Shown piece after piece: positions 28,817 to 41,716 of a stretch of 41,716 nt of DNA (within the stretch, counting starts at the first letter, position 1; the number at the start of each line of letters is the position of its first letter). Position numbers and translations under genes: made by a program. The DNA lies in NCBI GenBank assembly GCA_029862975.1, contig JAOTWP010000022.1, forward strand, positions 1 to 41,716. The letters run 5' to 3'. The stretch comes from Acidobacteriota bacterium. Lineage in GTDB: Bacteria > Acidobacteriota > Thermoanaerobaculia > Multivoradales > JAHEKO01. A model generated the notes under the pieces. The model was not told the DNA's origin, made no database searches, and saw nothing but the letters and a program-made list of their open reading frames with translations.

Positions 28817-28830
28817 GGGGGATATGCCCC
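28817..28830. promoter_or_regulatory. Upstream activator-like palindrome, copy 1 (GGGGGATATGCCCC)
   Basis: A 14-bp site of form GGGGnATATnCCCC, palindromic except at the two n positions, centred about 137 bp before the predicted sigma-54 transcription start. It is 13/14 identical to copy 2 and starts 31 bp before it. Confidence 0.72.
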
Positions 28831-28847
28831 AATTGGCCGCTCGAATC

Positions 28848-28861
28848 GGGGGATATTCCCC
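28848..28861. promoter_or_regulatory. Upstream activator-like palindrome, copy 2 (GGGGGATATTCCCC)
   Basis: Second GGGGnATATnCCCC site, centred about 106 bp before the predicted start. The 31-bp spacing puts both copies on the same face of the DNA, as for paired enhancer-binding-protein dimers. Confidence 0.72.
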
Positions 28862-29014: not shown

Positions 29015-30100
29015 ATGCGCACTGCCACCCGAATCCTGCTCCTGGCGAGCGTCGCAGCGCTCGTGCTGTGGGGCGTCCCGGCGCTGGCCTTCCACGACGA
29101 GGGCGTCGCCCACTGCAACGGCTGCCATACCATGCACAACAGCTACGAGGGCGAGCCCGTCGACCCGGATTCCCCCGACGGCAACCCGTGGCTGCTCGTC
29201 GACGCGACGCCGAGCGACACCTGCCTCGGCTGCCACAGCTCGGCCAACTCGTCGAGAGGTGTGTTCGACGGCGACTGCTCGGCGGGTCATTCGCTCGAGA
29301 AGGGCGCCGGCAACTACATCTTCCTGACCTGCCCCGACCTGCGGGAGTCCACTCGCGGCGCGGTCATTCCGGGAGAGCGGGCGGGCCACAACCTCGACGC
29401 CCCGGGCCACGGCCTCGTCACGGACACCACCCACATCTCGGCGCCAGGCGGCACCTTCCCGGCCTTGCTGATGGGCTGCACGAGCTGCCACGATCCGCAC
29501 GGCACGTTCTCCTTCCGGCTGCTGTACGGTGCCCGTGAGGTCCAGGGTACCTACAACTTCACCAACCCACCGCCGGTGGCCGAGAAGCTGGACAGCGGCA
29601 TCGGTGGCGAGGAGCCGAACAACCACACCGCCTACCAGAGCGGCATGAGCCTGTGGTGCGGCAACTGCCACACCGACTTCGAGGACATCGGCTTGACCCA
29701 CAAGCACGTCGCCGGGGAGCCTCTCGGGCCCGGGATCGCTCTGGCCTACAACCTCTACAACGGGTCCGACGACCTGATCGGCGGCGACCCGGCCTTCGCG
29801 TACTGGCCGGAAGTGCCGTTCGAGGACGCGGGCATGACGATCGACAACACGGCGGGACCGGCTGCCTCGAGCCAGGTGATGTGCCTGACCTGCCATCGGG
29901 CGCACGCCACCTCGGCGGCCTCCTCGGGGCGCTGGGACTTCAACGTCACCTTCAACGAGGAGGACGGCGACGCCTGGGGCACGTACGAGATGGCCCAGCG
30001 GATCTCGGACCTGAGTCCGAACGCGAACCGCTCGCTGTGCAACAAGTGCCACGTCCAGGACATCGACGACGAGGTCAAGCAGGACGGCGGTCCCTACTGA
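29015..30100 (+). CDS. omcS: OmcS-like hexaheme c-type cytochrome (extracellular nanowire subunit)
   Basis: A 361-residue exported cytochrome. Cleavage after Ala25 gives a mature start FHDEGVAHCNGCHTMHNS, matching the start of Geobacter OmcS (FHSGGVAECEGCHTMHNS, from memory). Six CxxCH motifs occur in OmcS order: CNGCH (34-38), CLGCH (70-74), CTSCH (155-159), CGNCH (215-219), CLTCH (290-294), CNKCH (342-346). Flanking pieces ERAGHN, APGGTFPA, CHDPHG, GMSLWCGNCHTD, CHRAHA and SLCNKCH also fit. OmcS polymerises outside the cell into a heme-stacked filament that conducts electrons. About 70 residues are missing relative to OmcS, mostly between hemes 3 and 5. Two extra Cys (88 in CSAGH and 106) are unusual. 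It is led by a sigma-54 promoter. Confidence 0.9.
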   Translation: MRTATRILLLASVAALVLWGVPALAFHDEGVAHCNGCHTMHNSYEGEPVDPDSPDGNPWLLVDATPSDTCLGCHSSANSSRGVFDGDCSAGHSLEKGAGNYIFLTCPDLRESTRGAVIPGERAGHNLDAPGHGLVTDTTHISAPGGTFPALLMGCTSCHDPHGTFSFRLLYGAREVQGTYNFTNPPPVAEKLDSGIGGEEPNNHTAYQSGMSLWCGNCHTDFEDIGLTHKHVAGEPLGPGIALAYNLYNGSDDLIGGDPAFAYWPEVPFEDAGMTIDNTAGPAASSQVMCLTCHRAHATSAASSGRWDFNVTFNEEDGDAWGTYEMAQRISDLSPNANRSLCNKCHVQDIDDEVKQDGGPY

Positions 30101-30236: not shown

Positions 30237-32465
30237 ATGGAAAGTGTGGAGATGCGCGCCGCGGTATGCCATCCTTGCCGCGAAGGTTCTCCGAGGACGC
30301 TCGATGCCGGAAGCGCAGGGAACCACGGGAGAAGTCCGCTGAGGACAGCCGACGACGGTCTCGACCTGGGCGCCCTGCGGGCAAGGGCCAGGTTGCGGCG
30401 CCCGCTGCTGGCAGCCGCGGTGCTGTGGGCGGCGAGCACCGTTCCGGCGCGGGCCGTGGACGTCAACGGCAGCGTCCGGGCCTGGATCGGATCCGTCGAC
30501 GCCGGCGGGCTCCAGAGCGACGAGGAGGATCGGGCGTTCCGGTTGACGCTGACCCAGGAGCTGACGCCCTGGCTGTCGATCTTCGGGTCCTTCCGGGCCA
30601 CCAACTTCCGCACGACCTTCGGGCCGGGCCCGACGTTCGAGCGGACCTCCGAGCAGCCGGAGATCGGCCTCGCCTACAGCCGGAGGAACCTCAACGGGCG
30701 CCTGCTCTTCAGTGACCGGGCCATCCGAACGACGGACGAGAGCCAGGATCTCGACATTCGCACCTTCCTGGCGAGCCTGGATTGGCGTCCCCGGCGCGGC
30801 CCGCGGCTCGGCTTCCGCTTGCAGGACTCGACGAGCACCGCCGACGCCGTGCTCTTCGGCCGCGACACGGCGTCGCGCAGCCTCAACTTCCGCGCCGATT
30901 ACGCGAAGGCCACCTGGAACGCGCGCTACTTCTTCGATGTGACCGACATCACGAACAACAACACCGGCTCGAGCCTCGAACAGAGCCGGCACGAGCTGCG
31001 CACCGGCTATTTCGAGAGCCTGTGGGACGATCGCTGGTCGATCGTCCTGGACGCCAGGCTCGCCGACGTGCGCCAGGTCCAGGAGGCCGCGGCCGGGGCT
31101 ACGGTCGCCCTGCCGCTGCCGGCCGCCCAGGGCCTCTTCGCCATCGATTCGACCCCTGCTCTCGGTGAGCTGGAGCCGGCGCCACAGCTCATCGACGGCG
31201 ACACGGCGCAGCCGGCGGCGCCCGGCGTCGAGATCGGCGGTGCCAATACGTTTCGCAACATCGGCCTCGATATGGGGGTCAGCCGTCCGGTCAGCGCGCT
31301 GGAGGTGAGCGTCGACACTCCGTCCGGACCCGTCGTCTGGCAGGTCTGGCAGAGCCCGGACAACTCGAGCTGGTTCGAGGTCGGCCCGGTGGCGTCGGAC
31401 TTCGACGCCGGGTTTCTGCGCTACAACCTGCGGTTTCCAGAGACCACGGCTCAATACTTCAAGGCGGTCAACCTGTCGGTCAACCCGGTCCTCGACGTGT
31501 CCGTGACGGAGATCCGGGCGCTGCGGGCCGCCGGCGCGCTCGAGCGCACGGAAGGCACCGGCAGCGAGTACTGGCTGAATCTCCAGACCAGCTTGCAGGC
31601 CACCGAGAGGATCGAGGTCTCGGTCGGCGCCAATCTGCGGCGGGATCAGGACCTCGTCGCCACCGACGTGCGCCGCAGCTACGACGAGCGCGGGCTTTCG
31701 GCGCAGGTGCGCTCGGACCTCGGCGCCAACCTGCAGCTGCGCCTCGGATACCGGATCGCCGAGCTCGACGAGAAGGTCGAGCCCGCGCTCGAGCGCCGGC
31801 AGGAGACCGCGACCGCCGCGCTCGACTGGCAGCCGCTCGAAGCCGTCGGCGTGCTCTTCACGGCCCAGCAGCGCGATGAGACGGATGGCGCCCAGCTCTT
31901 GAGCGCCACCGATTCGCTGACCCTCCAGGCCGTCACCCGGATCTTCCCCGATCTCGTCCTCAACTCGACCTTCGGCGTCGCCGACACGAGCAACCTGCTC
32001 TTCGGCTTCTCGCAGGAGACCCGTTTCGTCGTCGAGACGGTCGAGGCCCGGCCCAACGACAGGTGGCTGCTCGGAGGGACGCTGTCGCGTCACGAGTACG
32101 ACTCGGCGGGGCGGGTCGTCGTCACCTTCCGCACCGGCGCCCGGCTGCGGGCATCCTGGTTCGCGACTCCCTTCCTGTCGCTGAGCGGGGAGTGGGGGAG
32201 GAGCGAAGACGACCTCGGCGGCACCACGACGCGGCGCCTCGGCGCGCAGTGGTCGCCGGGACCCAAGCTGGCGCTCGCGGCCAGCTTTTTCGAGACGGAT
32301 GCCTCCACGGGCGGCGGTACGTCGAACCTAGCCTTTGATGGCAGCTACCGGCTCAATCGATGGTTCCGGATGTGGCTGGCGCTCAGCGAAGCCGAGTCGC
32401 TCATCGCCACCCAGGAGCCGCAGACGACCGAAGCACTGAGGCTGGGTATCTCTGCGATATTCTGA
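30237..32465 (+). CDS. Outer-membrane beta-barrel protein of the cytochrome cluster
   Basis: Up to 742 residues. The long chain alternates amphipathic strands (FRLTLTQELTPWLSIFGSFRATNF, SLNFRADYAKATWNARYFFDV, LRLGISAIF) and ends in Phe, the usual outer-membrane signal. A soluble insert at about residues 330-430 (RNIGLDMGVSRPVSALEVSVDT, WQVWQSPDNSSWFEV) resembles a discoidin/F5-8 beta-sandwich. By position it is the likely porin or conduit partner for the cytochromes. The start is uncertain: ATG 30237 puts about 50 residues before the hydrophobic signal, whereas TTG at 30393 would begin a perfect signal peptide, MRRPLLAAAVLWAASTVPARA. I favour the shorter form but give the longer frame. It has no CxxCH. 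Confidence 0.78.
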   Translation: MESVEMRAAVCHPCREGSPRTLDAGSAGNHGRSPLRTADDGLDLGALRARARLRRPLLAAAVLWAASTVPARAVDVNGSVRAWIGSVDAGGLQSDEEDRAFRLTLTQELTPWLSIFGSFRATNFRTTFGPGPTFERTSEQPEIGLAYSRRNLNGRLLFSDRAIRTTDESQDLDIRTFLASLDWRPRRGPRLGFRLQDSTSTADAVLFGRDTASRSLNFRADYAKATWNARYFFDVTDITNNNTGSSLEQSRHELRTGYFESLWDDRWSIVLDARLADVRQVQEAAAGATVALPLPAAQGLFAIDSTPALGELEPAPQLIDGDTAQPAAPGVEIGGANTFRNIGLDMGVSRPVSALEVSVDTPSGPVVWQVWQSPDNSSWFEVGPVASDFDAGFLRYNLRFPETTAQYFKAVNLSVNPVLDVSVTEIRALRAAGALERTEGTGSEYWLNLQTSLQATERIEVSVGANLRRDQDLVATDVRRSYDERGLSAQVRSDLGANLQLRLGYRIAELDEKVEPALERRQETATAALDWQPLEAVGVLFTAQQRDETDGAQLLSATDSLTLQAVTRIFPDLVLNSTFGVADTSNLLFGFSQETRFVVETVEARPNDRWLLGGTLSRHEYDSAGRVVVTFRTGARLRASWFATPFLSLSGEWGRSEDDLGGTTTRRLGAQWSPGPKLALAASFFETDASTGGGTSNLAFDGSYRLNRWFRMWLALSEAESLIATQEPQTTEALRLGISAIF

Positions 32466-32486: not shown

Positions 32487-33065
32487 ATGACAGAGTTGAG
32501 ACCCACGGTCGCCGCCTCGATCCTCATCGCCGGGCTGACGCTGCTCGGCTGCTCGGGCAATCTCGCCACGACCGAGTTCACGAACCCCCGCTTCGACTTC
32601 GGCTTCGTGGAGCGGGTGGCGGTGATGCCTCTCGAGGACCTGGCCGGCGATCGTCAGGCGGGGCTTCGCGCGACGCGGATGCTGATCACCGAGCTCCTGG
32701 CTTCGGGCGCAGTGGACGTCGTCGAGCCCGGCGAGCTGCAGGCCGTCGCCGATCGGGTCGTCCGCGGCCGCGGCCTGCCCTCCAAGGACGAGATCCTCGA
32801 GCTCGGCCGCCAGCTCGAGGTCCAGGCCGTCATCGTGGGGAGCGTGACGCAGTCCGAGGTGCTGCGCTCCGGCGCCGTCAGCGTGCCCGTGGTCACCCTC
32901 GACCTCCACATGCTGGAGACCGAGACCGGCACGGCGGTGTGGGCGGTGACCCACACCGAAAGAGGGTCGGGCGCTGCCGCGAAGTGGCTCGGGACCGGGG
33001 CGGAGCCGATCTCGGCGACGACCCGTAAGTGCGTCCAAGAGGCGCTGCGGAGCTTGTTTGGATGA
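32487..33065 (+). CDS. CsgG/FlgO-like outer-membrane lipoprotein
   Basis: A 192-residue lipoprotein: signal residues 1-21 end in LLGC with Cys22 as the lipid site. The domain reads RVAVMPLEDLAGDRQAG, ATRMLITELLASGAVDVVEPGEL, LEVQAVIVGSVTQSEV and VTLDLHMLETETGTAVWAVT, the strand-helix pattern of CsgG, FlgO and GNA1162-type proteins, which assemble at the outer membrane; CsgG itself is the curli secretion channel. A GGGAAGG Shine-Dalgarno 6 nt before the ATG at 32487 is better than the earlier ATG at 32472. It overlaps the next gene by 4 bp. Family assignment is by pattern; a channel role here is inference. Confidence 0.75.
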   Translation: MTELRPTVAASILIAGLTLLGCSGNLATTEFTNPRFDFGFVERVAVMPLEDLAGDRQAGLRATRMLITELLASGAVDVVEPGELQAVADRVVRGRGLPSKDEILELGRQLEVQAVIVGSVTQSEVLRSGAVSVPVVTLDLHMLETETGTAVWAVTHTERGSGAAAKWLGTGAEPISATTRKCVQEALRSLFG

Positions 33066-34213
33066 GGCCGGCCACCTTCGCCGGCTCCCTGCTCCTCCTC
33101 GTGGCCGCCGGACTCACCCCACCCGTGGCGGCGGAGCTGCCGCCCGGCCGCGGCGCTCTGCTGCCGGTACAGGACCGCGTCGGGGCAGCGCGGTTCGCCG
33201 GCCTCACCGAGACCCTGCTGCGACGGGAGCTCGAGCCGCTCCGCGACCTGGCCGCGAGCGACGCGGCGCGGGCCGTGCTGCGCTCCCTGCGAATCCGCGA
33301 TGCCGGCAGCGAGTCGCCGGAGCGACTGGCCGCGCTCGCGGACCGGCTGGGAGCCGAGTGGTTCTTCCTTGCCACGCTGCACGAAGCGAGATCCGGCCGG
33401 CGGTCGGCGCGCGACGGCGGCGGGACGCCGACCGATTCCGACTTCGACGATGCCGGCGAGCTTCCGCTCGTGGTCCTCTCGGCCCTCGTCTTGCGGCCCG
33501 ACTCCGAGGAGCTCTGGTGGGCGGGCTTCCACGCCGCGTCCGGTCTCGAAGGCCGGGGCGCCTTCGGTCGCGGGGGGATCGAGACCCTGGACGAGCTGGT
33601 CGCGACCGCGGTTCGCGCTCTCGTCGCGGCGGCCGATGGGCCGGAAGCGTCCCAGGAGCGGACGCGTCTGCGCCGCCGGAAAGGCGGGTTCTTGCGGGCG
33701 TCGCACGAACCCTCGCCGCCCGGCCGCGTTGCGGTGATTCCCATGGACTCGGCCGCCGTGACGACTCCGGGCGCCTCGGCCGCGGTGGCGACCGCGGCGC
33801 TGCTCGCCGCCCTCGAGGACTTCGGCTTCAAGGCTCTGCTGCCGGGTCTCGTGCGGACCATCCGGCAGCAGAGCGGGCAGGGGCAGCACGGGGCCGCGAG
33901 CCGCTCCGAATGGGAGGCTCTGGCTCGCGAGGGGGGTGCGAAGTGGGTGGCCACGGGCACCGTGGAGACCTATCGCGGCGGCCGGGGGGGGATCCCCGAC
34001 CCGGAGGTCGCCCTCGCCGTCCGTTTTCTCGACGCCGCAGACGGCAGGATCGCGTGGCTCGACGGGCTCGAGCGAACCGGCAGCGACACGGCGGTCGTCT
34101 TCGACCGCGGTCGGATCTACACGGCGGGCGGCCTGGCCTACGAGATGATGCGCGCCTTGTTCGGCGCGATGCGGACCGGCTCCGGCAACGCTGGGACGGC
34201 CGGGGGTAGCTGA
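33062..34213 (+). CDS. Exported protein with two CsgG/FlgO-like domains
   Basis: A 383-residue protein with a signal peptide (FAGSLLLLVAAGLTPPVAA). Each half repeats the same series seen in the preceding lipoprotein. Half one: GALLPVQD, LADRLGAEWFFLATLHEA, VVLSALVLRPDSEELWWAGF. Half two: RVAVIPMDS, LAREGGAKWVATGTVETY, VALAVRFLDAADGRIAWLDG. This suggests an internal duplication of a CsgG/FlgO-like domain joined by a basic linker (RTRLRRRKGGF). No lipobox is present. Its ATG lies in the upstream stop (ATGA), so the two proteins are made together and may form a complex. Confidence 0.68.
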   Translation: MRPATFAGSLLLLVAAGLTPPVAAELPPGRGALLPVQDRVGAARFAGLTETLLRRELEPLRDLAASDAARAVLRSLRIRDAGSESPERLAALADRLGAEWFFLATLHEARSGRRSARDGGGTPTDSDFDDAGELPLVVLSALVLRPDSEELWWAGFHAASGLEGRGAFGRGGIETLDELVATAVRALVAAADGPEASQERTRLRRRKGGFLRASHEPSPPGRVAVIPMDSAAVTTPGASAAVATAALLAALEDFGFKALLPGLVRTIRQQSGQGQHGAASRSEWEALAREGGAKWVATGTVETYRGGRGGIPDPEVALAVRFLDAADGRIAWLDGLERTGSDTAVVFDRGRIYTAGGLAYEMMRALFGAMRTGSGNAGTAGGS

Positions 34214-34217
34214 CGCG

Positions 34218-35948
34218 ATGATCTTCGATTCCCTCGCGTTTTCCAGGCCGGCCGCTCCCCTCGTGGCCGCCTGCGCCCTCTTCGGGGCCGTGGCGGCCGG
34301 TTCGCAGATGGAGCTTCCTCCGACGACGGTCGCCGTGGTCAACGGCGAAGCGATCACGATCGAGGACCTGGAGAAGAGCCTGGAGACCCTCCACGGGGAA
34401 GCGGAGACCGCCCAGCGGTCTCCCGCCCGCCTCGAGCGGCTCCTGTTCAAGGCCGTCAACGACGTGCTCATCGGCCAGGAGGCGCGGGTCCTCGGTCTCC
34501 ACGAGGAGCCCCCCATTCCGGAGACGCTCGAGCGCAACCGCCGCCGTCTCGCTCTCTCCATCCTCGAGCGCGAGGAGATCGAGGGTCCCGCCGAGCCGGG
34601 GGACGACGAGGTGACGGCGATCTTCGAGGAAAGGTACCGCCGGGCCAGCTTCCACGTCCTGACCGCCGGGGACTTCGAAGGCGCGGAGCGGATCCTCGAC
34701 GCGCTGCGCGCGGGCGTCGACATCGGAACCGTGGCGCGCGAGCAGTCGATCGATCCCTACCGCGAGCAGGGCGGCCTCGTCGAGGGCGTCGCGAGGAAGG
34801 ACCTGCAGCTCGTCATCGCCGACCTCGTCTTCACGCTGGCCCCCAACGAGGTCGCCGGTCCCGTGCAGACCGATCTCGGCTGGTCGGTCGTCGTCGCGCA
34901 GTCCTTCCAGGGCCCGGACCCGGAGCTCTTCGAGGAGGCTCGCCCGCTGCTCGAGCGCCTGGCCAGGCAGCGCCGCGAGTCGACCCTGCGCCAGGAGCTC
35001 CTGGCCGGGCTGCGTTCGCGCCACGCCGTCTGGATCGATCGCGACCTGGTCGATTCGATCTCGCCCGTGCGGCGCCGGGACGGCCGGCTGACCGCCGAGA
35101 GCCCCGGCCCGGAGACGGTGGTCGCCAGGATCGGCGACGAGATCACTCTGTCCGGCGACGAGTACGCGGTGGCGCTCGAGCGCCGCTGGCGGACGATTCC
35201 CGACGAGGAGGCGGCGCGGGCGGCCGGACCGATCATCCTCGAGAACCTGATCAACGAGCGACTGCTCCTCGCCGAGGCCTACCGCCGCGGCTATCACGAG
35301 CTTCCCGCGGTACGGCGGGCGCTCCACCGGCTGGAGACCGACCTGGTCGTCCCGAAGTACCTGAGCTCGGTGCTCGCCGCCGGCGTCGAGGTGTCCGAAG
35401 AGGAGATGCGCGCCTACTACGAAGAGACCAAGGCCGGCCTCAAGCGGCCGCCTCGCGTGCAGCTCGGGCAGATCACCGTTCCGTCCCTGGAGGAGGCCGA
35501 GAGCGTTGCCGCCGCGTTGCGCGGCGGCTCCGACCTCGGCTGGCTGGCCGAGCGGCACTCGACCGACGGGCTCAGGGACAAGGGAGGAGTCAAGGGCTGG
35601 TCGGTGGTCCGGCCGGGCGGAGCCGGGCTCGACGCGGCGCTCCTCGCGGCGGAGACCGGAGCGACTCTCGACCCGGTGCCGGGGGACGGCGATTCCTGGG
35701 TGGTCTACAAGGTGCTGGCGCGGGAGGAGCAGGGGGTCTACTCGTACGAAGAGGTGTCCGGCAACATGCGCGAAGCGGTCTTCCGGCGGGAATTCACGGC
35801 GGTGCTCGATCGTTTCATCCAGAGTGCCCGCAGCCGGTCCGAGATCGAGGTCCGGGAGGACGTCCTCGCGGCTCTCGAGCTCTCGGGCACGCAGGAGGTC
35901 GAGGACGGCTCGGGACATGGAGGACATGGGGTACACGGTGAGGGCTGA
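34218..35948 (+). CDS. Periplasmic parvulin-type peptidyl-prolyl isomerase (SurA/PrsA-like, two modules)
   Basis: A 576-residue exported protein with signal AAPLVAACALFGAVAAG. It has two similar modules, each a SurA-N-like helical part followed by a PPIC-like part: VAVVNGEAITIEDLEKSLE (from about residue 38) with the PPIC-like EQSIDPYREQGGLVEGV (about 170-190), and VARIGDEITLSGDEYAVALE (from about 303) with AERHSTDGLRDKGGVKGWSV (about 440-460). It probably helps fold or export the multiheme proteins next to it; isomerases of this kind occur with cytochrome filament genes. The C-terminal tail (GHGGHGVHGEG) is His/Gly-rich. It lies 4 nt after the previous gene and overlaps the next. Confidence 0.85.
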   Translation: MIFDSLAFSRPAAPLVAACALFGAVAAGSQMELPPTTVAVVNGEAITIEDLEKSLETLHGEAETAQRSPARLERLLFKAVNDVLIGQEARVLGLHEEPPIPETLERNRRRLALSILEREEIEGPAEPGDDEVTAIFEERYRRASFHVLTAGDFEGAERILDALRAGVDIGTVAREQSIDPYREQGGLVEGVARKDLQLVIADLVFTLAPNEVAGPVQTDLGWSVVVAQSFQGPDPELFEEARPLLERLARQRRESTLRQELLAGLRSRHAVWIDRDLVDSISPVRRRDGRLTAESPGPETVVARIGDEITLSGDEYAVALERRWRTIPDEEAARAAGPIILENLINERLLLAEAYRRGYHELPAVRRALHRLETDLVVPKYLSSVLAAGVEVSEEEMRAYYEETKAGLKRPPRVQLGQITVPSLEEAESVAAALRGGSDLGWLAERHSTDGLRDKGGVKGWSVVRPGGAGLDAALLAAETGATLDPVPGDGDSWVVYKVLAREEQGVYSYEEVSGNMREAVFRREFTAVLDRFIQSARSRSEIEVREDVLAALELSGTQEVEDGSGHGGHGVHGEG

Positions 35949-37875
35949 GCGCCGGCTCGGGGGCCTCGCGATCGCCTTCTGCGTGACGTTTCTCGGCCTC
36001 GCGGGCTGGCGGGCGGCCGAGGCGCAGCTGCGCCCGGGCGCGCGCTTCGAGGAGAAGGGCCAGTGCCTGGAGTGCCACGCCGAGGTGGCGCGCGCGGTCC
36101 GCGAGCCCCATGCGCCCGTGGGGAAGGGCGACTGCGCGGCGTGCCACAAGCCGCACGGACTCGTCGGCGCCTTGCGGCTGCAGGCGGAGGAGCCGGCCCT
36201 GTGTCTCGAGTGCCACTCGGGGCAGGCCGCGGAGCTGGCGGCGAGCCATCAGCATCCCGAAGCCGGCAAGTGCTCCGCATGCCACGATCCGCACGGCTCG
36301 GACCACCCGGCGATGCTCGTCGAGCCCGAGAGAGAGCTCTGTCTGAGCTGCCATGAGGACTCCGGCTTCACGCGTCCGGTCGTCCATGCGCCGGCGGCGG
36401 AGGACTGCTCCTCCTGCCACCTGCCGCACGGCGGCCCCAATCCGCGCCTCCTCGAGCTCGAGCAAGAGGCGCTCTGCGCTACCTGCCACGACGCCGGCCC
36501 GGGGGCGGACTTCGCGACCGCCCACGGCGGCTATGCGGCCGCCGGCTCCGACTGCTCGTCGTGCCACGTGCCGCACTCGGGCTCGACGGAGGCGCTGCTG
36601 CGCGCCTCGGTCCACCCGGAGATGACCTGCGACACGTGCCACGACCCGAGCGCACCGGCCGCTGCGCTCGGGCCGGAGCTCTGCCTCGACTGCCACGAGC
36701 TGCCCCTCGAGCCCGCCGGCGGCTCGCTGCACTACCCGGCCGCGGAGGGCGCCTGTCTCGACTGCCACGACCCCCACGCCACGGACCACCAGCCGCTGCT
36801 GCTCGCCGCCGAGCGCGAGCTGTGCACCGAATGCCACGACGACGTGGCGGCTGCTCTCGACCTGCCGAGCGTGCATCCCGTGGCCGGGGAGTGCTCCTCG
36901 TGCCACGCCGGGCACGCGGCCAGCCACCCGCTGCTGCTCGCGGCCGAGGGGCGGGAGCTCTGCGTGGAGTGCCACGAGGATCCCGAGACCTCGGGCGCAG
37001 CGGTGGTGCACCCGCCGGCGGCCGGCGACTGCCTCGACTGCCACGGCCCCCACGGGACGCCGATCCGCGGCCTGCTCGTCGCCTCCCAGGAAGACCTGTG
37101 CGGAGAGTGCCACCCCGGGGTCGGCAACCGCTCCGGCCTCCCCGTCGTGCACGCGCCTGTGGCCGCCGGGGAGTGCTCGGCCTGCCATCTGCCGCACTCG
37201 GGCGGCGCGCTGCTCCTGCAGGCCGAGGGGGCCGAGCTGTGCGGCGAGTGCCACGAGTCGACCCTCCTGGCGGTGGCCGAGAGCGACCGGCATCTGCCCT
37301 TCGCGGACGGGGACTGCGCAACCTGCCACGCCGCCCACGCGTCGGAGCTCGAGAACCTGATGGCCGCTTCCGTCGGCAGCGTGTGCTCCGAGTGCCACGA
37401 CGTCGAGACGACGGCGCCGGCCGGCGGCAGCGCCCACCGCCCCGTCGTCGAGGGCGACTGCACGGCCTGTCATCAACCCCACGGCAGCGCGATCGCGGGC
37501 TTTCTCCAGGCCAGTCCGCGCCCTCTGTGCACGAGCTGCCACAGCGAGGTCGAGACCCGGCTGGCGACCCTCGACGCGCATCCGCCGGCCGTCGATGACG
37601 ATGGCTGCCTGACGTGCCACGGAGCCCACGCCTCGCCGCACGCCAACCTGCTCGCACAGAAGGTCGACGCATTGTGCACCGACTGCCACGACGGCGAGTC
37701 CGAGGAGTTCCGGAGCCTCCATCTCGGCCTGCCGGCGACGGCGATCGACTGCGGTGGCTGTCACGATCCGCATGCCTCCGAGGGCTCCGGCATGCTGCTG
37801 CCGCGGCTCCACTTCCCGTTCGCCGAGCGCGAGTGCTCGCTCTGCCACGAGGACACCGGGGGGACCGCGCCATGA
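35917..37875 (+). CDS. 26-heme c-type cytochrome (doubled-CXXCH family)
   Basis: A 652-residue exported cytochrome. I count 26 CxxCH motifs, arranged mostly in pairs of the form H-x-P-x-x-x-G-x-C-x-x-C-H-x-P-H-G followed by LCxxCH, typical of doubled-CXXCH repeat cytochromes. No CxxCH is degenerate. The signal segment is LGGLAIAFCVTFLGLAG. Possible starts are ATG 35917, ATG 35926 and GTG 35938; all overlap the isomerase gene (by 32, 23 or 11 bp). It probably stores or relays electrons in the periplasm or at the outer membrane. It is linked to the next cytochrome by an ATGA overlap. Confidence 0.92.
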   Translation: MEDMGYTVRAERRLGGLAIAFCVTFLGLAGWRAAEAQLRPGARFEEKGQCLECHAEVARAVREPHAPVGKGDCAACHKPHGLVGALRLQAEEPALCLECHSGQAAELAASHQHPEAGKCSACHDPHGSDHPAMLVEPERELCLSCHEDSGFTRPVVHAPAAEDCSSCHLPHGGPNPRLLELEQEALCATCHDAGPGADFATAHGGYAAAGSDCSSCHVPHSGSTEALLRASVHPEMTCDTCHDPSAPAAALGPELCLDCHELPLEPAGGSLHYPAAEGACLDCHDPHATDHQPLLLAAERELCTECHDDVAAALDLPSVHPVAGECSSCHAGHAASHPLLLAAEGRELCVECHEDPETSGAAVVHPPAAGDCLDCHGPHGTPIRGLLVASQEDLCGECHPGVGNRSGLPVVHAPVAAGECSACHLPHSGGALLLQAEGAELCGECHESTLLAVAESDRHLPFADGDCATCHAAHASELENLMAASVGSVCSECHDVETTAPAGGSAHRPVVEGDCTACHQPHGSAIAGFLQASPRPLCTSCHSEVETRLATLDAHPPAVDDDGCLTCHGAHASPHANLLAQKVDALCTDCHDGESEEFRSLHLGLPATAIDCGGCHDPHASEGSGMLLPRLHFPFAERECSLCHEDTGGTAP

Positions 37876-39125
37876 CGACGTCGAGATCCCGCCTCGCGGT
37901 GCTCCTGCTGCCGCCGCTCGCCGCCGTCCTCTGGCTCGCGCCGGCGGCGAGCGGGGTCCCCGTGGATCAGGGCGAGGTCTGCCTCGAGTGCCATGACGAC
38001 GTCGCCGCCGAGCTCAGGCTGCCGGTCGAGCATCCGCCCGCCAAGGAGGCGGAGTGCTCCTCCTGCCACAACCCCCACGCGGCGCGCGACGCGGGTCTGC
38101 TGCTCGAGAGGCCGGCGATCCTCTGCGTCGAGTGCCACGCCGACGTCGCGGAGCAGCTGGGGCGGAGGGTCCTCCATCAGCCGGTGGCGGAAGGCCGCTG
38201 CACGAGCTGCCACCGGCCGCACGGCGCCGGCCACGAGAAGCTGCTCCTCGCGGCGGGCGCCGACCTCTGCGTGACGTGCCACGCGGACGTCGCCGGTTGG
38301 CGAGGACTCGCCAACCAGCACTCGCCGTTCGAGCGCGGGCGCTGCACCGACTGCCACGAGCCGCATGGCAGCGAGCACGAGCGCCTGCAGCGGAAGGCCG
38401 GCGGCGAGGTGTGCTCGAAATGCCATCCCGTGAGCGCCAAGTTCCGCTCCGATCACGGCGGCTACCCGGTGGAGCAGGCGAACTGCCGGCAGTGCCACGA
38501 TCCCCACGCCTCCAAGCAGGCCGGGCTCCTGCAGCCCAACGTCCACGAGCCCTTCGCGGCCGGCGACTGCACGCTGTGTCACGTCGCGGTCGGCTCGCCG
38601 GCACCGTTCGCGCTCCGTGTCACCCAGGACGAGCTCTGCGGCGACTGCCACGAGGACGCGGTCGAGGAGAACCGGTCGGCGGCGTTCCCGCACGTCGCGG
38701 CCGGCGGCTCGCGCTGCTCGGCCTGTCACAACCCCCATGGCGGGCAGGGCGGGAGCCTCCTGCGGCGCGAGACCAACGAGCTGTGCCTGTCGTGCCACGA
38801 CCCGGGGGGCAGCGCCACCGGCGGGGCGGGTCACTTCCAGACCCACTCCGAGCTCGGCTGCGATACCTGCCACGCTCCGCACGGCGGCGATCGGCCGGTG
38901 CTGCTGGCGGACGATCCCATCGAGCTGTGCGGCCTGTGCCACTCGCACCAGCACGCCATCACGCATCCGCTGGGCGAGGAGGTGCGGGATCCGCGCAACG
39001 GCCAGGCGCTGGACTGTCTGTCCTGCCACGGCATCCACGAGGCGACGGCGGACAAGTACCTCCACAAGAGCGGCACCCGCGATCTCTGCCTCGGCTGCCA
39101 CAAGGACAAGGGGGTGGTGCGTTGA
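37872..39125 (+). CDS. 16-heme c-type cytochrome (doubled-CXXCH family)
   Basis: A 417-residue exported cytochrome with signal RLAVLLLPPLAAVLWLAPAASG. I count 16 CxxCH motifs, from VCLECHDDVAAEL to DLCLGCHKDKGVVR, in the same paired layout as its 26-heme neighbour, including repeated SCHxPHG. The two probably arose from one repeat family. The ATG lies in the upstream stop (ATGA), and the next gene's TTG lies in this stop (TTGA), so translation is coupled. A role as an electron carrier between inner membrane and the filament or conduit is inferred from the cluster. Confidence 0.92.
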   Translation: MTTSRSRLAVLLLPPLAAVLWLAPAASGVPVDQGEVCLECHDDVAAELRLPVEHPPAKEAECSSCHNPHAARDAGLLLERPAILCVECHADVAEQLGRRVLHQPVAEGRCTSCHRPHGAGHEKLLLAAGADLCVTCHADVAGWRGLANQHSPFERGRCTDCHEPHGSEHERLQRKAGGEVCSKCHPVSAKFRSDHGGYPVEQANCRQCHDPHASKQAGLLQPNVHEPFAAGDCTLCHVAVGSPAPFALRVTQDELCGDCHEDAVEENRSAAFPHVAAGGSRCSACHNPHGGQGGSLLRRETNELCLSCHDPGGSATGGAGHFQTHSELGCDTCHAPHGGDRPVLLADDPIELCGLCHSHQHAITHPLGEEVRDPRNGQALDCLSCHGIHEATADKYLHKSGTRDLCLGCHKDKGVVR

Positions 39126-40042
39126 GACGCGGTGCGTCGAGACGCGAAGCCGCGTCGCTCGTCGGGCGTCGACTGGCGCTCCTCGTCGCCGTGGCGTCCA
39201 TCTGGGCGGCGCCGGCCGCCGGGCAGGACGGCGCGACGCTCTACGCCTTCGACGAGGCGGTCGCGGGCGGCGAGACGCTGCGGCTGCGCTGGCCGACCGC
39301 GGTCGCCGCCGGCGGCGCCGACGAGATCGCCGTCGCCGACGCCGAGGGGCCCTCGCTCGCCGTCTTCCGCGATCTCGGCGGCGGCGAAGGCTGGGTCGTC
39401 CACGCCGCGATCGAGCTTCCGGCTCCGGCCTACAGCGTGTCGTGCGGCGCCGATTTCTACCTGATCTCCACCCGCCGGCCAGGAGTTCTGCTGACCGTCG
39501 CCAAGAGCGACTACACCCTGCGCGAGCTCGCCCTGGCGCCGGGCATCACGCCGGGCGCCGCGACCTGCCTGCCCGACGACCGGCTGCTCGTCCACGATCT
39601 GGCCGCCGGCCGGCTGGTCGTTCTCGACGGCGCCGGGAAGGTGCTGACGGCGGTGGCGATCGCCGAGACGGTCGCCGCGCTGGCCCCCGGAGCGGGCGGC
39701 GGCTTCTACGCCGCCCTTCCCGGCGCGGGGGAGGTGCGGCGCTACGGCGCCAACGGCGAGCAGCTGTCGTCGCTGAAGCTGCCGGGGGTGGGTCCGACGC
39801 CCGCCTGGCCGGTGGGTCTGGCCGTCGAGGCCAACGGCGAGGTCGTCGTCGTCGATCGGCACGGGGGCAGGATCCTCGTCGTGGAAGCGAGCGGCCGCCT
39901 GGCAGGCTCCGGCTCGCGCAAGGGGTGGGAGCCCGGCCTGCTGCGCTTCCCGGCCAGCCTTGCCAGGCTCCCGGACGGCAGGGTCGTGGTCGCCGATCAG
40001 GGCAACGGGCGGGTCCAGCTGTTCCGCCGCCTCGAAGAATGA
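39122..40042 (+). CDS. Exported NHL/six-bladed beta-propeller protein
   Basis: A 306-residue protein with a signal peptide (RRLALLVAVASIWAAPAAG) and about six repeats with the NHL pattern, e.g. RWPTAVAAGGADEIAVADAEGPSLAVF, WPVGLAVEANGEVVVVDRHGGRILVV, FPASLARLPDGRVVVADQGNGRVQLF. Such propellers mediate protein contacts and are found beside extracellular cytochrome filament genes. The TTG start at 39122 shares TTGA with the previous stop; no other in-frame start would keep the full signal peptide. Its end overlaps the next propeller gene by ATGA. Confidence 0.85.
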   Translation: MRRGASRREAASLVGRRLALLVAVASIWAAPAAGQDGATLYAFDEAVAGGETLRLRWPTAVAAGGADEIAVADAEGPSLAVFRDLGGGEGWVVHAAIELPAPAYSVSCGADFYLISTRRPGVLLTVAKSDYTLRELALAPGITPGAATCLPDDRLLVHDLAAGRLVVLDGAGKVLTAVAIAETVAALAPGAGGGFYAALPGAGEVRRYGANGEQLSSLKLPGVGPTPAWPVGLAVEANGEVVVVDRHGGRILVVEASGRLAGSGSRKGWEPGLLRFPASLARLPDGRVVVADQGNGRVQLFRRLEE

Positions 40043-41716
40043 GGGCTCGCGGCGGCAGCACGGTGCTGGTCGGCGTGCTGGCGGGACTGCTCCTGCTCGT
40101 CGCGGACGCCTCCCTGGGCCAGCCGCCCGGCCCGATCCCTCCCCGCTACGCCCAGCGCCTGCGGATGCCCATCCGCGGCGATGACCTCCAGCAGCCGCGC
40201 GCGGTCGTCGCCGACCCGCACACCGGGGAGATCTTCGTCTGCGACGGCCTGCGCAACCGGATCGTCATCTTCGACGAGGAGGGCCGGTTCCGCTACGAGA
40301 TCCCGGGGGGCAGCGATTTTCAAACGCCGATCGACGTCGCCGTGGATCCCCAAGGGTACCTCTTCGTGCTGGGCCAGGTCAGCGGCCGGATCATGCTGCT
40401 CGACTTCGACGGGCGACTCGTCCGCGGACTGCCGCTCGAGGGCCTGCCGGAGGACGCCGGAAGCCCCGGCTTCGCCTCCCTGGCGATCTCGCCGAGCGGC
40501 GAGAGACTCTACCTGCTGGACGCCGAGAACGACCGCCTGTGGATGGCCGATCGCGAGGGCGCGATCCTGGGCGCAGTCGACTTCACGGCCGGCCGCACGC
40601 CAAAGGAGATCGACGAGCTGCGCTACGGCCACGTCGACGTCTACGGCGACACGGTGCTCGTCGCGGTGCCGAGCGACGGGCTCGTGCACCTCTTCGACCT
40701 GGAAGGCCGCGCCAAGGGGACCGTCGGCGCCCAGGGCGCCGCGGAGTGCCAGACCATGTTCCCCGTCGCCGCGGCGCTCGACGACCAGGGGAGGGCGATC
40801 ATCCTCGACCAGCAGCGGGCCCTCTTCATGACCTGGGACCTGGCGCGCAACGCCTGCCTGAGCGAGCACTACGGCTTCGGCAACGCGCCCGGCGCCTTCT
40901 ATCAGCCCAGCGACCTCGCCCTCGACGCCGCGGGCCGCCTCTGGGTCAGCCAGGGCTTCGAGGGACGGGTCCAGGTCTACGAGGGGGCTCGCCCGGCGCT
41001 CGCGCTGCTCGCGGCCGCGCCGCCCGCGCCGCCCGCCCCGGAAGCCTCCGCGGAGCCCTCGATCGCCGGCCTGGGGACGGGCGGGCAGGAGCCCGAGGAG
41101 CCCGGCGCCGCGGCCCTTCCGCCGGCAGAGCCCGCCGCGCCGGCGGAGCCCGAAGTCGCGACGGCCGAGGCGAAGCTGCTTCCGCCGGCAGAGCCCGCCG
41201 CGCCGGCGGAGCCCGACGTCGCGACGGCCGAGGCGAGGCTCCTTCCGCCGGTAGAGCCCGCCGCGCCGGCGGAGCCCGAGGTCGCGACGGCCGAGGCGAG
41301 GCTCCTTCCGCCGGTAGAGCCCGCCGCGCCGGCGGAGCCCGAGGTCGCGACGGCCGAGGCGAAGCTGCTTCCTCCGGTAGAGCCCGCCGCGCCGGCGGAG
41401 CCAGAGGTCGCGACGGCCGAGGCGAAGCTGCTTCCGCCGGTAGAGCCCGCCGCGCCGGCGGAGCCCGACGTCGCGACGGCCGAGGCCGAGCCCCGTCTCG
41501 TTGCGGGCGCTCTGCTGTCGGTCGCGAGGGCGCCGCGCTACGATCCCAGCTACGCCGAGCTCGCCTATCCGGGAGGCGACGTGGCGGCCGACCGCGGTGC
41601 CGCCGTCGACGTCGTCGTCCGCGCCTTCCGCCACGCGGGGGTCGATCTGCAGCGAGCGGTCCACGAGGACATCGTCGCCGCCCCCGCGGCCTACGGGATC
41701 GCGGAGCCCGACGCGA
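40039..41716 (+). CDS. Beta-propeller (NHL) - repeat linker - DUF1287 fusion protein, C-terminally cut by window
   Basis: At least 559 residues; the 3' end is beyond the window. A signal peptide (VLVGVLAGLLLLVADASLG) leads to a propeller of about residues 40-330 (LQQPRAVVADPHTGEIFVCDG, TPIDVAVDPQGYLFVLG, YQPSDLALDAAGRLWVSQG). A Pro/Ala/Glu linker follows with six copies of a 21-residue unit (LPPxEPAAPAEPxVATAEA; residues about 360-483). From about residue 495 the sequence RYDPSYAELAYPGGDVAAD and DLQRAVHEDI matches DUF1287 (E. coli YijF type). The family's conserved Cys in GVCTDVV is Ala522 here (GAAVDVV). The domain pairing is unusual; function unknown. It is translationally coupled to the previous propeller gene. 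Confidence 0.85.
   Translation, partial: MRARGGSTVLVGVLAGLLLLVADASLGQPPGPIPPRYAQRLRMPIRGDDLQQPRAVVADPHTGEIFVCDGLRNRIVIFDEEGRFRYEIPGGSDFQTPIDVAVDPQGYLFVLGQVSGRIMLLDFDGRLVRGLPLEGLPEDAGSPGFASLAISPSGERLYLLDAENDRLWMADREGAILGAVDFTAGRTPKEIDELRYGHVDVYGDTVLVAVPSDGLVHLFDLEGRAKGTVGAQGAAECQTMFPVAAALDDQGRAIILDQQRALFMTWDLARNACLSEHYGFGNAPGAFYQPSDLALDAAGRLWVSQGFEGRVQVYEGARPALALLAAAPPAPPAPEASAEPSIAGLGTGGQEPEEPGAAALPPAEPAAPAEPEVATAEAKLLPPAEPAAPAEPDVATAEARLLPPVEPAAPAEPEVATAEARLLPPVEPAAPAEPEVATAEAKLLPPVEPAAPAEPEVATAEAKLLPPVEPAAPAEPDVATAEAEPRLVAGALLSVARAPRYDPSYAELAYPGGDVAADRGAAVDVVVRAFRHAGVDLQRAVHEDIVAAPAAYGIAEPDA
41116..41487 (+). repeat. 63-bp in-frame tandem repeat, about 5.9 copies
   Basis: Units begin at 41116, 41179, 41242, 41305, 41368 and 41431, each exactly 63 bp and 21 codons, encoding a Pro/Ala/Glu-rich linker. 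Copies differ by only a few bases (gca/gta, gag/gac, aag/agg), so the array expanded recently. Confidence 0.95.

Follow-up and report, generated by a model that had tools for sequence, protein, structure and literature searches.

In Geobacter sulfurreducens, an eight-gene block, GSU2500–2493, comes after the gene for an OmcS-like cytochrome, GSU2501 (oscC), and one report links this block to nanowire maturation and secretion (PMC12977616). A second report, citing Shen et al. 2025, gives the proposed roles of the products of this osc ("omcS companion") cluster as folding for OscH, OmcS secretion for OscE, OscF and OscG, and morphology for OscD, and equates GSU2495 with oscI (PMC13194489); GSU2495 contains 26 heme motifs (PMC2996986). 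In the Pel system, 12 subunits of PelC make up a collar beneath the barrel of PelB, which has 16 strands and holds the PelC ring through TPR domains (PMC12141448).

The original prediction for the locus described here was a CsgG-type pore for the export of cytochrome nanowire subunits, on the premise that no export route for them was established. That premise is partly out of date: osc-dependent secretion of OmcS is already proposed (PMC13194489, PMC12977616), although the secretion mechanism of nanowire cytochromes, and with it the crossing of the outer membrane by a folded, heme-loaded cytochrome on its way to the nanowire, is still described as speculative in a 2025 review (PMC12307469). 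The export hypothesis plausibly stands in a modified form that is largely known already, to which we add a clearer assignment of the parts. What we add is the placement of the CsgG-like proteins nearest to PelC, the barrel as the probable pore and the conservation of the module across Acidobacteriota.

An osc-like gene cluster in Acidobacteriota

The stretch of DNA analysed (the window) is one whole contig of 41,716 nucleotides (G000:C220). A run of genes on the forward strand extends from 29015 to the contig end, and many of its junctions are ATGA or TTGA overlaps, which suggests a single operon (Table 1). The gene set and order are those of oscC followed by oscE-F-G-H-I-J: a hexaheme OmcS-like gene comes first, then secretion genes and a prolyl isomerase, and after these two multiheme cytochromes, the first of which has the same count of 26 hemes. 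The OmcS-like cytochrome in the cluster (5.3e-38) bears out the link to nanowires made in the original prediction. The locus differs from the osc cluster in belonging to Acidobacteriota and in having propeller genes downstream; the last two genes of the window encode NHL proteins, recognized by Pfam NHL, which are candidates for OscD-like propellers. The second of these is an unusual fusion of an NHL propeller to DUF1287, in which the linker consists of 5.9 copies of a 63-bp unit.

Because the 26-heme protein of the window matches the heme count of OscI, the remaining assignments could be made by following the gene order backwards. Counting in this way, solely from gene order and content, OscH would correspond to the prolyl isomerase, OscG to the double-domain protein, OscF to the lipoprotein and OscE to the large barrel. 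The abstract of Shen et al. is said to call OscEFG channel-like.

Table 1 Features of the window, with osc counterparts where gene order suggests one
Feature	Position	Strand	Osc counterpart (by gene order)	Evidence or remark
Two copies of GGGGGATATNCCCC, 31 bp apart; candidate operator	28817..28861	+		Upstream of cluster
Six-heme OmcS-like cytochrome; candidate filament subunit or exported cargo	29015..30100	+		6 CXXCH; PDB OmcS 6ef8, E 5.3e-38
Large outer-membrane beta-barrel with galactose-binding-like insert; candidate pore	30237..32465	+	OscE	AlphaFold, Foldseek
PelC/LpoB/CsgG-superfamily outer-membrane lipoprotein	32487..33065	+	OscF	Pfam, profile, AlphaFold
Periplasmic protein with two PelC/GNA1162-like domains	33062..34213	+	OscG	Profiles
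Parvulin-type prolyl isomerase/SurA-like chaperone	34218..35948	+	OscH	Pfam Rotamase_2 7.3e-22, Rotamase 6.8e-12
26-heme cytochrome (start approximate)	35938..37875	+	OscI	26 CXXCH
16-heme cytochrome	37872..39125	+	OscJ	16 CXXCH; ATGA overlap with preceding gene
NHL-repeat beta-propeller protein	39122..40042	+		Pfam NHL 2e-13
NHL protein with 63-bp tandem-repeat linker and DUF1287 domain	40039..41716	+		NHL 8.5e-10, DUF1287 2.5e-18; cut by contig end

Across Acidobacteriota we found the same module with a fixed gene content. All 26 loci examined (the window, 11 from its class and 14 from elsewhere in the phylum) combine the genes for the barrel, the lipoprotein, the two-domain protein and the prolyl isomerase. 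These loci were chosen by a match to the lipoprotein or the double-domain protein, so it is the linkage of the remaining genes that carries information. Almost all of these loci also contain multiheme cytochromes, mostly with six, 26 and 16 hemes; in two of them, a single 42-heme ORF replaces the 26-heme and 16-heme cytochromes (L107, 7579–10905; L106, 5339–8632). Of 396 genomes from the phylum, 17 have full-length lipoprotein matches (above 175 bits), with scores clearly apart from those of generic superfamily members. Within the class, all eight genomes in which an OmcS-like protein was matched at 1e-8 fall among the 13 with a full-length lipoprotein (hypergeometric 3e-10, uncorrected for kinship). 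A contig scan returned a single close relative of this gene cluster, which came from a Thermoanaerobaculia metagenome assembly and places the source of the window in that class of Acidobacteriota.

Relationship of the two proteins to PelC

Both ORFs singled out in the original prediction, and their coordinates, were correct. The first encodes a lipoprotein of 192 residues with the lipobox LTLLGC and Cys22, and a lipobox-like Cys is present in 13 of 13 orthologues. Its membership of the CsgG superfamily is confirmed by Pfam, in which matches to LpoB (1.6e-5) and CsgG (4.4e-5) both exceed the curated cut-offs; 11 of the 13 orthologues match CsgG. When a profile of the 13 orthologues was compared with the PDB, PelC came first (4.5e-11), followed by GNA1162 (2.6e-4) and LpoB (1.5e-3), and CsgG was absent from the matches listed. 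Most of the core of the AlphaFold model has a pLDDT of ~90 or more, and PelC was top-ranked for this model by both Foldseek and VIA-align. The VIA-align Z scores were 14.9–16.7 for PelC, ~9 for LptE and about 10–12.7 for a group comprising FlgT (12.4; together with the flagellar LPHT ring, 12.4–12.7), CsgG (up to 11.7), GNA1162 (11.6) and TolB.

The second ORF, of 383 residues, opens at 33062, where its start codon overlaps the end of the first ORF in ATGA, and runs to 34213. In the window copy, the protein has a signal peptide and no lipobox. As originally predicted, it carries the same domain twice: in hhalign comparisons, its halves align to the lipoprotein family with probabilities of 98.6 and 99.6%, and to each other with 99.5%. 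The window sequence alone matched no relevant Pfam family, and the 11 orthologues (limit E 1) matched GNA1162 (7 of 11), LpoB (6 of 11) and CsgG (3 of 11). The profile of the double-domain protein found PelC at 2e-13, over the second domain; its assignment comes solely from profiles, and the structure models cover the lipoprotein and the barrel.

Judged by these profiles and by the predicted structure, the closest solved relative of both proteins is PelC, a collar lipoprotein that is not a pore, and CsgG is more distant. The superfamily fold expected from the original prediction was recovered, with PelC nearer than CsgG (Z of 14.9–16.7 for PelC versus up to 11.7 for CsgG). The predicted likeness to FlgO proved marginal, consisting of a weak Pfam match (E 0.12) in a single one of the 11 orthologues of the double-domain protein. 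We rejected FlgO as the identity of either protein on this match and on the lack of flagellar genes among the window ORFs scanned.

The barrel and the proposed export route

The gene directly upstream of the lipoprotein gene encodes a predicted large outer-membrane barrel that ends in F. Its AlphaFold model (pLDDT 86, with confident strands) lists 29 strands outside an insert, 11 before it and 18 after, from which we estimate a ~28-strand barrel; the true number should be even and close to 28. The galactose-binding-like insert spans approximately residues 210–345 of the mature barrel and carries many of the invariant residues of the family, and its family profile resembles the F5/8-type domain of galactose oxidase (3.2e-4). 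On the predicted structures, this barrel, rather than the CsgG-like proteins, is the likelier pore.

Given that PelC forms a collar under PelB, a barrel and a PelC-like lipoprotein make a suggestive pair. As in PelBC, an outer-membrane lipoprotein of the same fold is encoded beside a barrel gene, and PelC (5t10, 5t11, 5t0z, 9h80) is the best match in both sequence and structure. The two systems differ in that the window barrel has ~28 strands and no TPR, compared with 16 strands and TPR domains in PelB, in the presence of a second, double-domain relative, and in the surrounding genes, which form a cytochrome operon rather than a set of polysaccharide genes. Export of a Pel-type polysaccharide was rejected because no polysaccharide genes were found among the ORFs scanned.

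We favour, as rather probable, a reading in which both proteins belong to an osc-type system for nanowire secretion and assembly and serve in it as PelC-like collars in the periplasm. Lipidation would anchor the single-domain protein in the inner leaflet of the outer membrane. We infer that it probably oligomerises in a ring around the periplasmic mouth of the ~28-strand barrel and contacts it, with the double-domain protein probably providing a second periplasmic tier. The prolyl isomerase would hold or fold the heme-loaded OmcS-like cytochrome, which would then pass through the collar into the barrel and polymerise outside. We put forward more tentatively, and with some doubt, a specific arrangement in which the three PelC-type domains on the two proteins build a stacked periplasmic collar on the ~28-strand barrel and the whole acts as a dedicated exporter of folded, heme-loaded filament subunits; if this is true, a PelBC-like architecture has been reused for protein nanowires. 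Taking the barrel to be the likely pore, with the PelC-like proteins as its collars, frames nanowire export in terms of concrete, testable complexes.

Several observations argue against a collar. The barrel model contains no TPR-like helical part of the kind found in PelB. Trp149 of PelC, which is required for ring assembly and for seating at the membrane, has no conserved counterpart: Trp167 of the window lipoprotein aligns at this position, but most orthologues have Leu or another residue there. In addition, in two of the 26 loci (L117 and L119) the lipoprotein gene lies away from the barrel gene and adjoins the 26-heme gene.

An unlikely alternative to the collar is that the barrel is an MtrB-like porin–cytochrome conduit for electrons, with a multiheme cytochrome inside, and that the lipoproteins help to build it or close it as a plug, in the way that LptE serves LptD, without any export of cytochromes. 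MtrB, the porin of MtrCAB (6r2q), is the best Foldseek match to the barrel model (1.7e-10), and the operon encodes two large multiheme cytochromes; however, the TM-score is low (0.41), the gene set is not the same, and the Pfam family MtrB_PioB is touched by only 1 of 12 barrel orthologues, at 0.023. The similarity of the lipoprotein model to LptE (Z about 9) is likewise far exceeded by that to PelC, and the osc cluster has been proposed to act in secretion (PMC13194489).

We also consider improbable a ring of the two proteins that serves as an anchor or scaffold, in the manner of FlgO, FlgT or LpoB, at the base of the filament or around the barrel and has no role in translocation. FlgT, FlgO, GNA1162, LpoB and LptE share the fold class, which recurs in periplasmic lipoproteins and rings, and both the Z scores for FlgT and the flagellar LPHT ring (12.4–12.7) and the Pfam matches to LpoB and GNA1162 are consistent with such a ring. 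These proteins differ from those of the window in gene context, they score below PelC, which is the better match by sequence and by structure, and no flagellar gene was seen among the window ORFs scanned.

A pore formed in the manner of the curli channel CsgG (4uv2, 4uv3, 4q79) would require the lipoprotein itself to build a membrane-spanning barrel. The window lipoprotein shares with CsgG the superfamily fold, the lipid anchor and the context of an extracellular filament, together with the Pfam match (4.4e-5) and Z scores of up to 11.7. The CsgG pore is made of two long hairpins per subunit. At the site of the first hairpin (TM1, Gly118 to Thr137), there are 19 residues in 13 of 13 lipoprotein orthologues, compared with 32 in a clear CsgG homologue from the same genome, and mostly 14–20 at the same Gly–Thr spacing in the halves of the double-domain protein, in a comparison that covers the TM1 site, as the control alignment ends before the TM2 region. 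An insertion of TM1 length is absent; by inspection, the lipoprotein residues around 119–137 are not amphipathic. The span aligned by VIA-align is 197 residues in CsgG (4q79) and 152 in the lipoprotein model, and the AlphaFold monomer has no strands beyond the PelC-like sheet and no extra hairpin pair. Because the TM1 spacing is short and these residues are not amphipathic, and with a fold nearer to PelC and a dedicated barrel gene adjoining, we rejected a CsgG-type pore made by these two proteins as very unlikely.

Candidate operator and related genes in the genome

The sequence GGGGGATATNCCCC is a 14-bp near-palindrome, and the two copies upstream of the cluster are its only exact matches in the 4.49 Mb genome. 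In two other genomes (those of L031 and L112), its 13-base core likewise precedes the cluster, and the pair is, on sequence grounds, a candidate operator for the nanowire genes. A promoter scan found no sigma-70 site, and Rfam and tRNA scans gave no matches.

A second gene for an OmcS-like six-heme cytochrome is present in the same genome on a short contig (G000:C114:903-1937; L123). In several relatives (L023, L111 and L115), a second OmcS-like copy lies at the 3' end of the cluster, and the short contig may therefore continue the window. The genome also encodes, on another contig, a tandem pair of CsgG-family genes (G000:C112:50436-51579).
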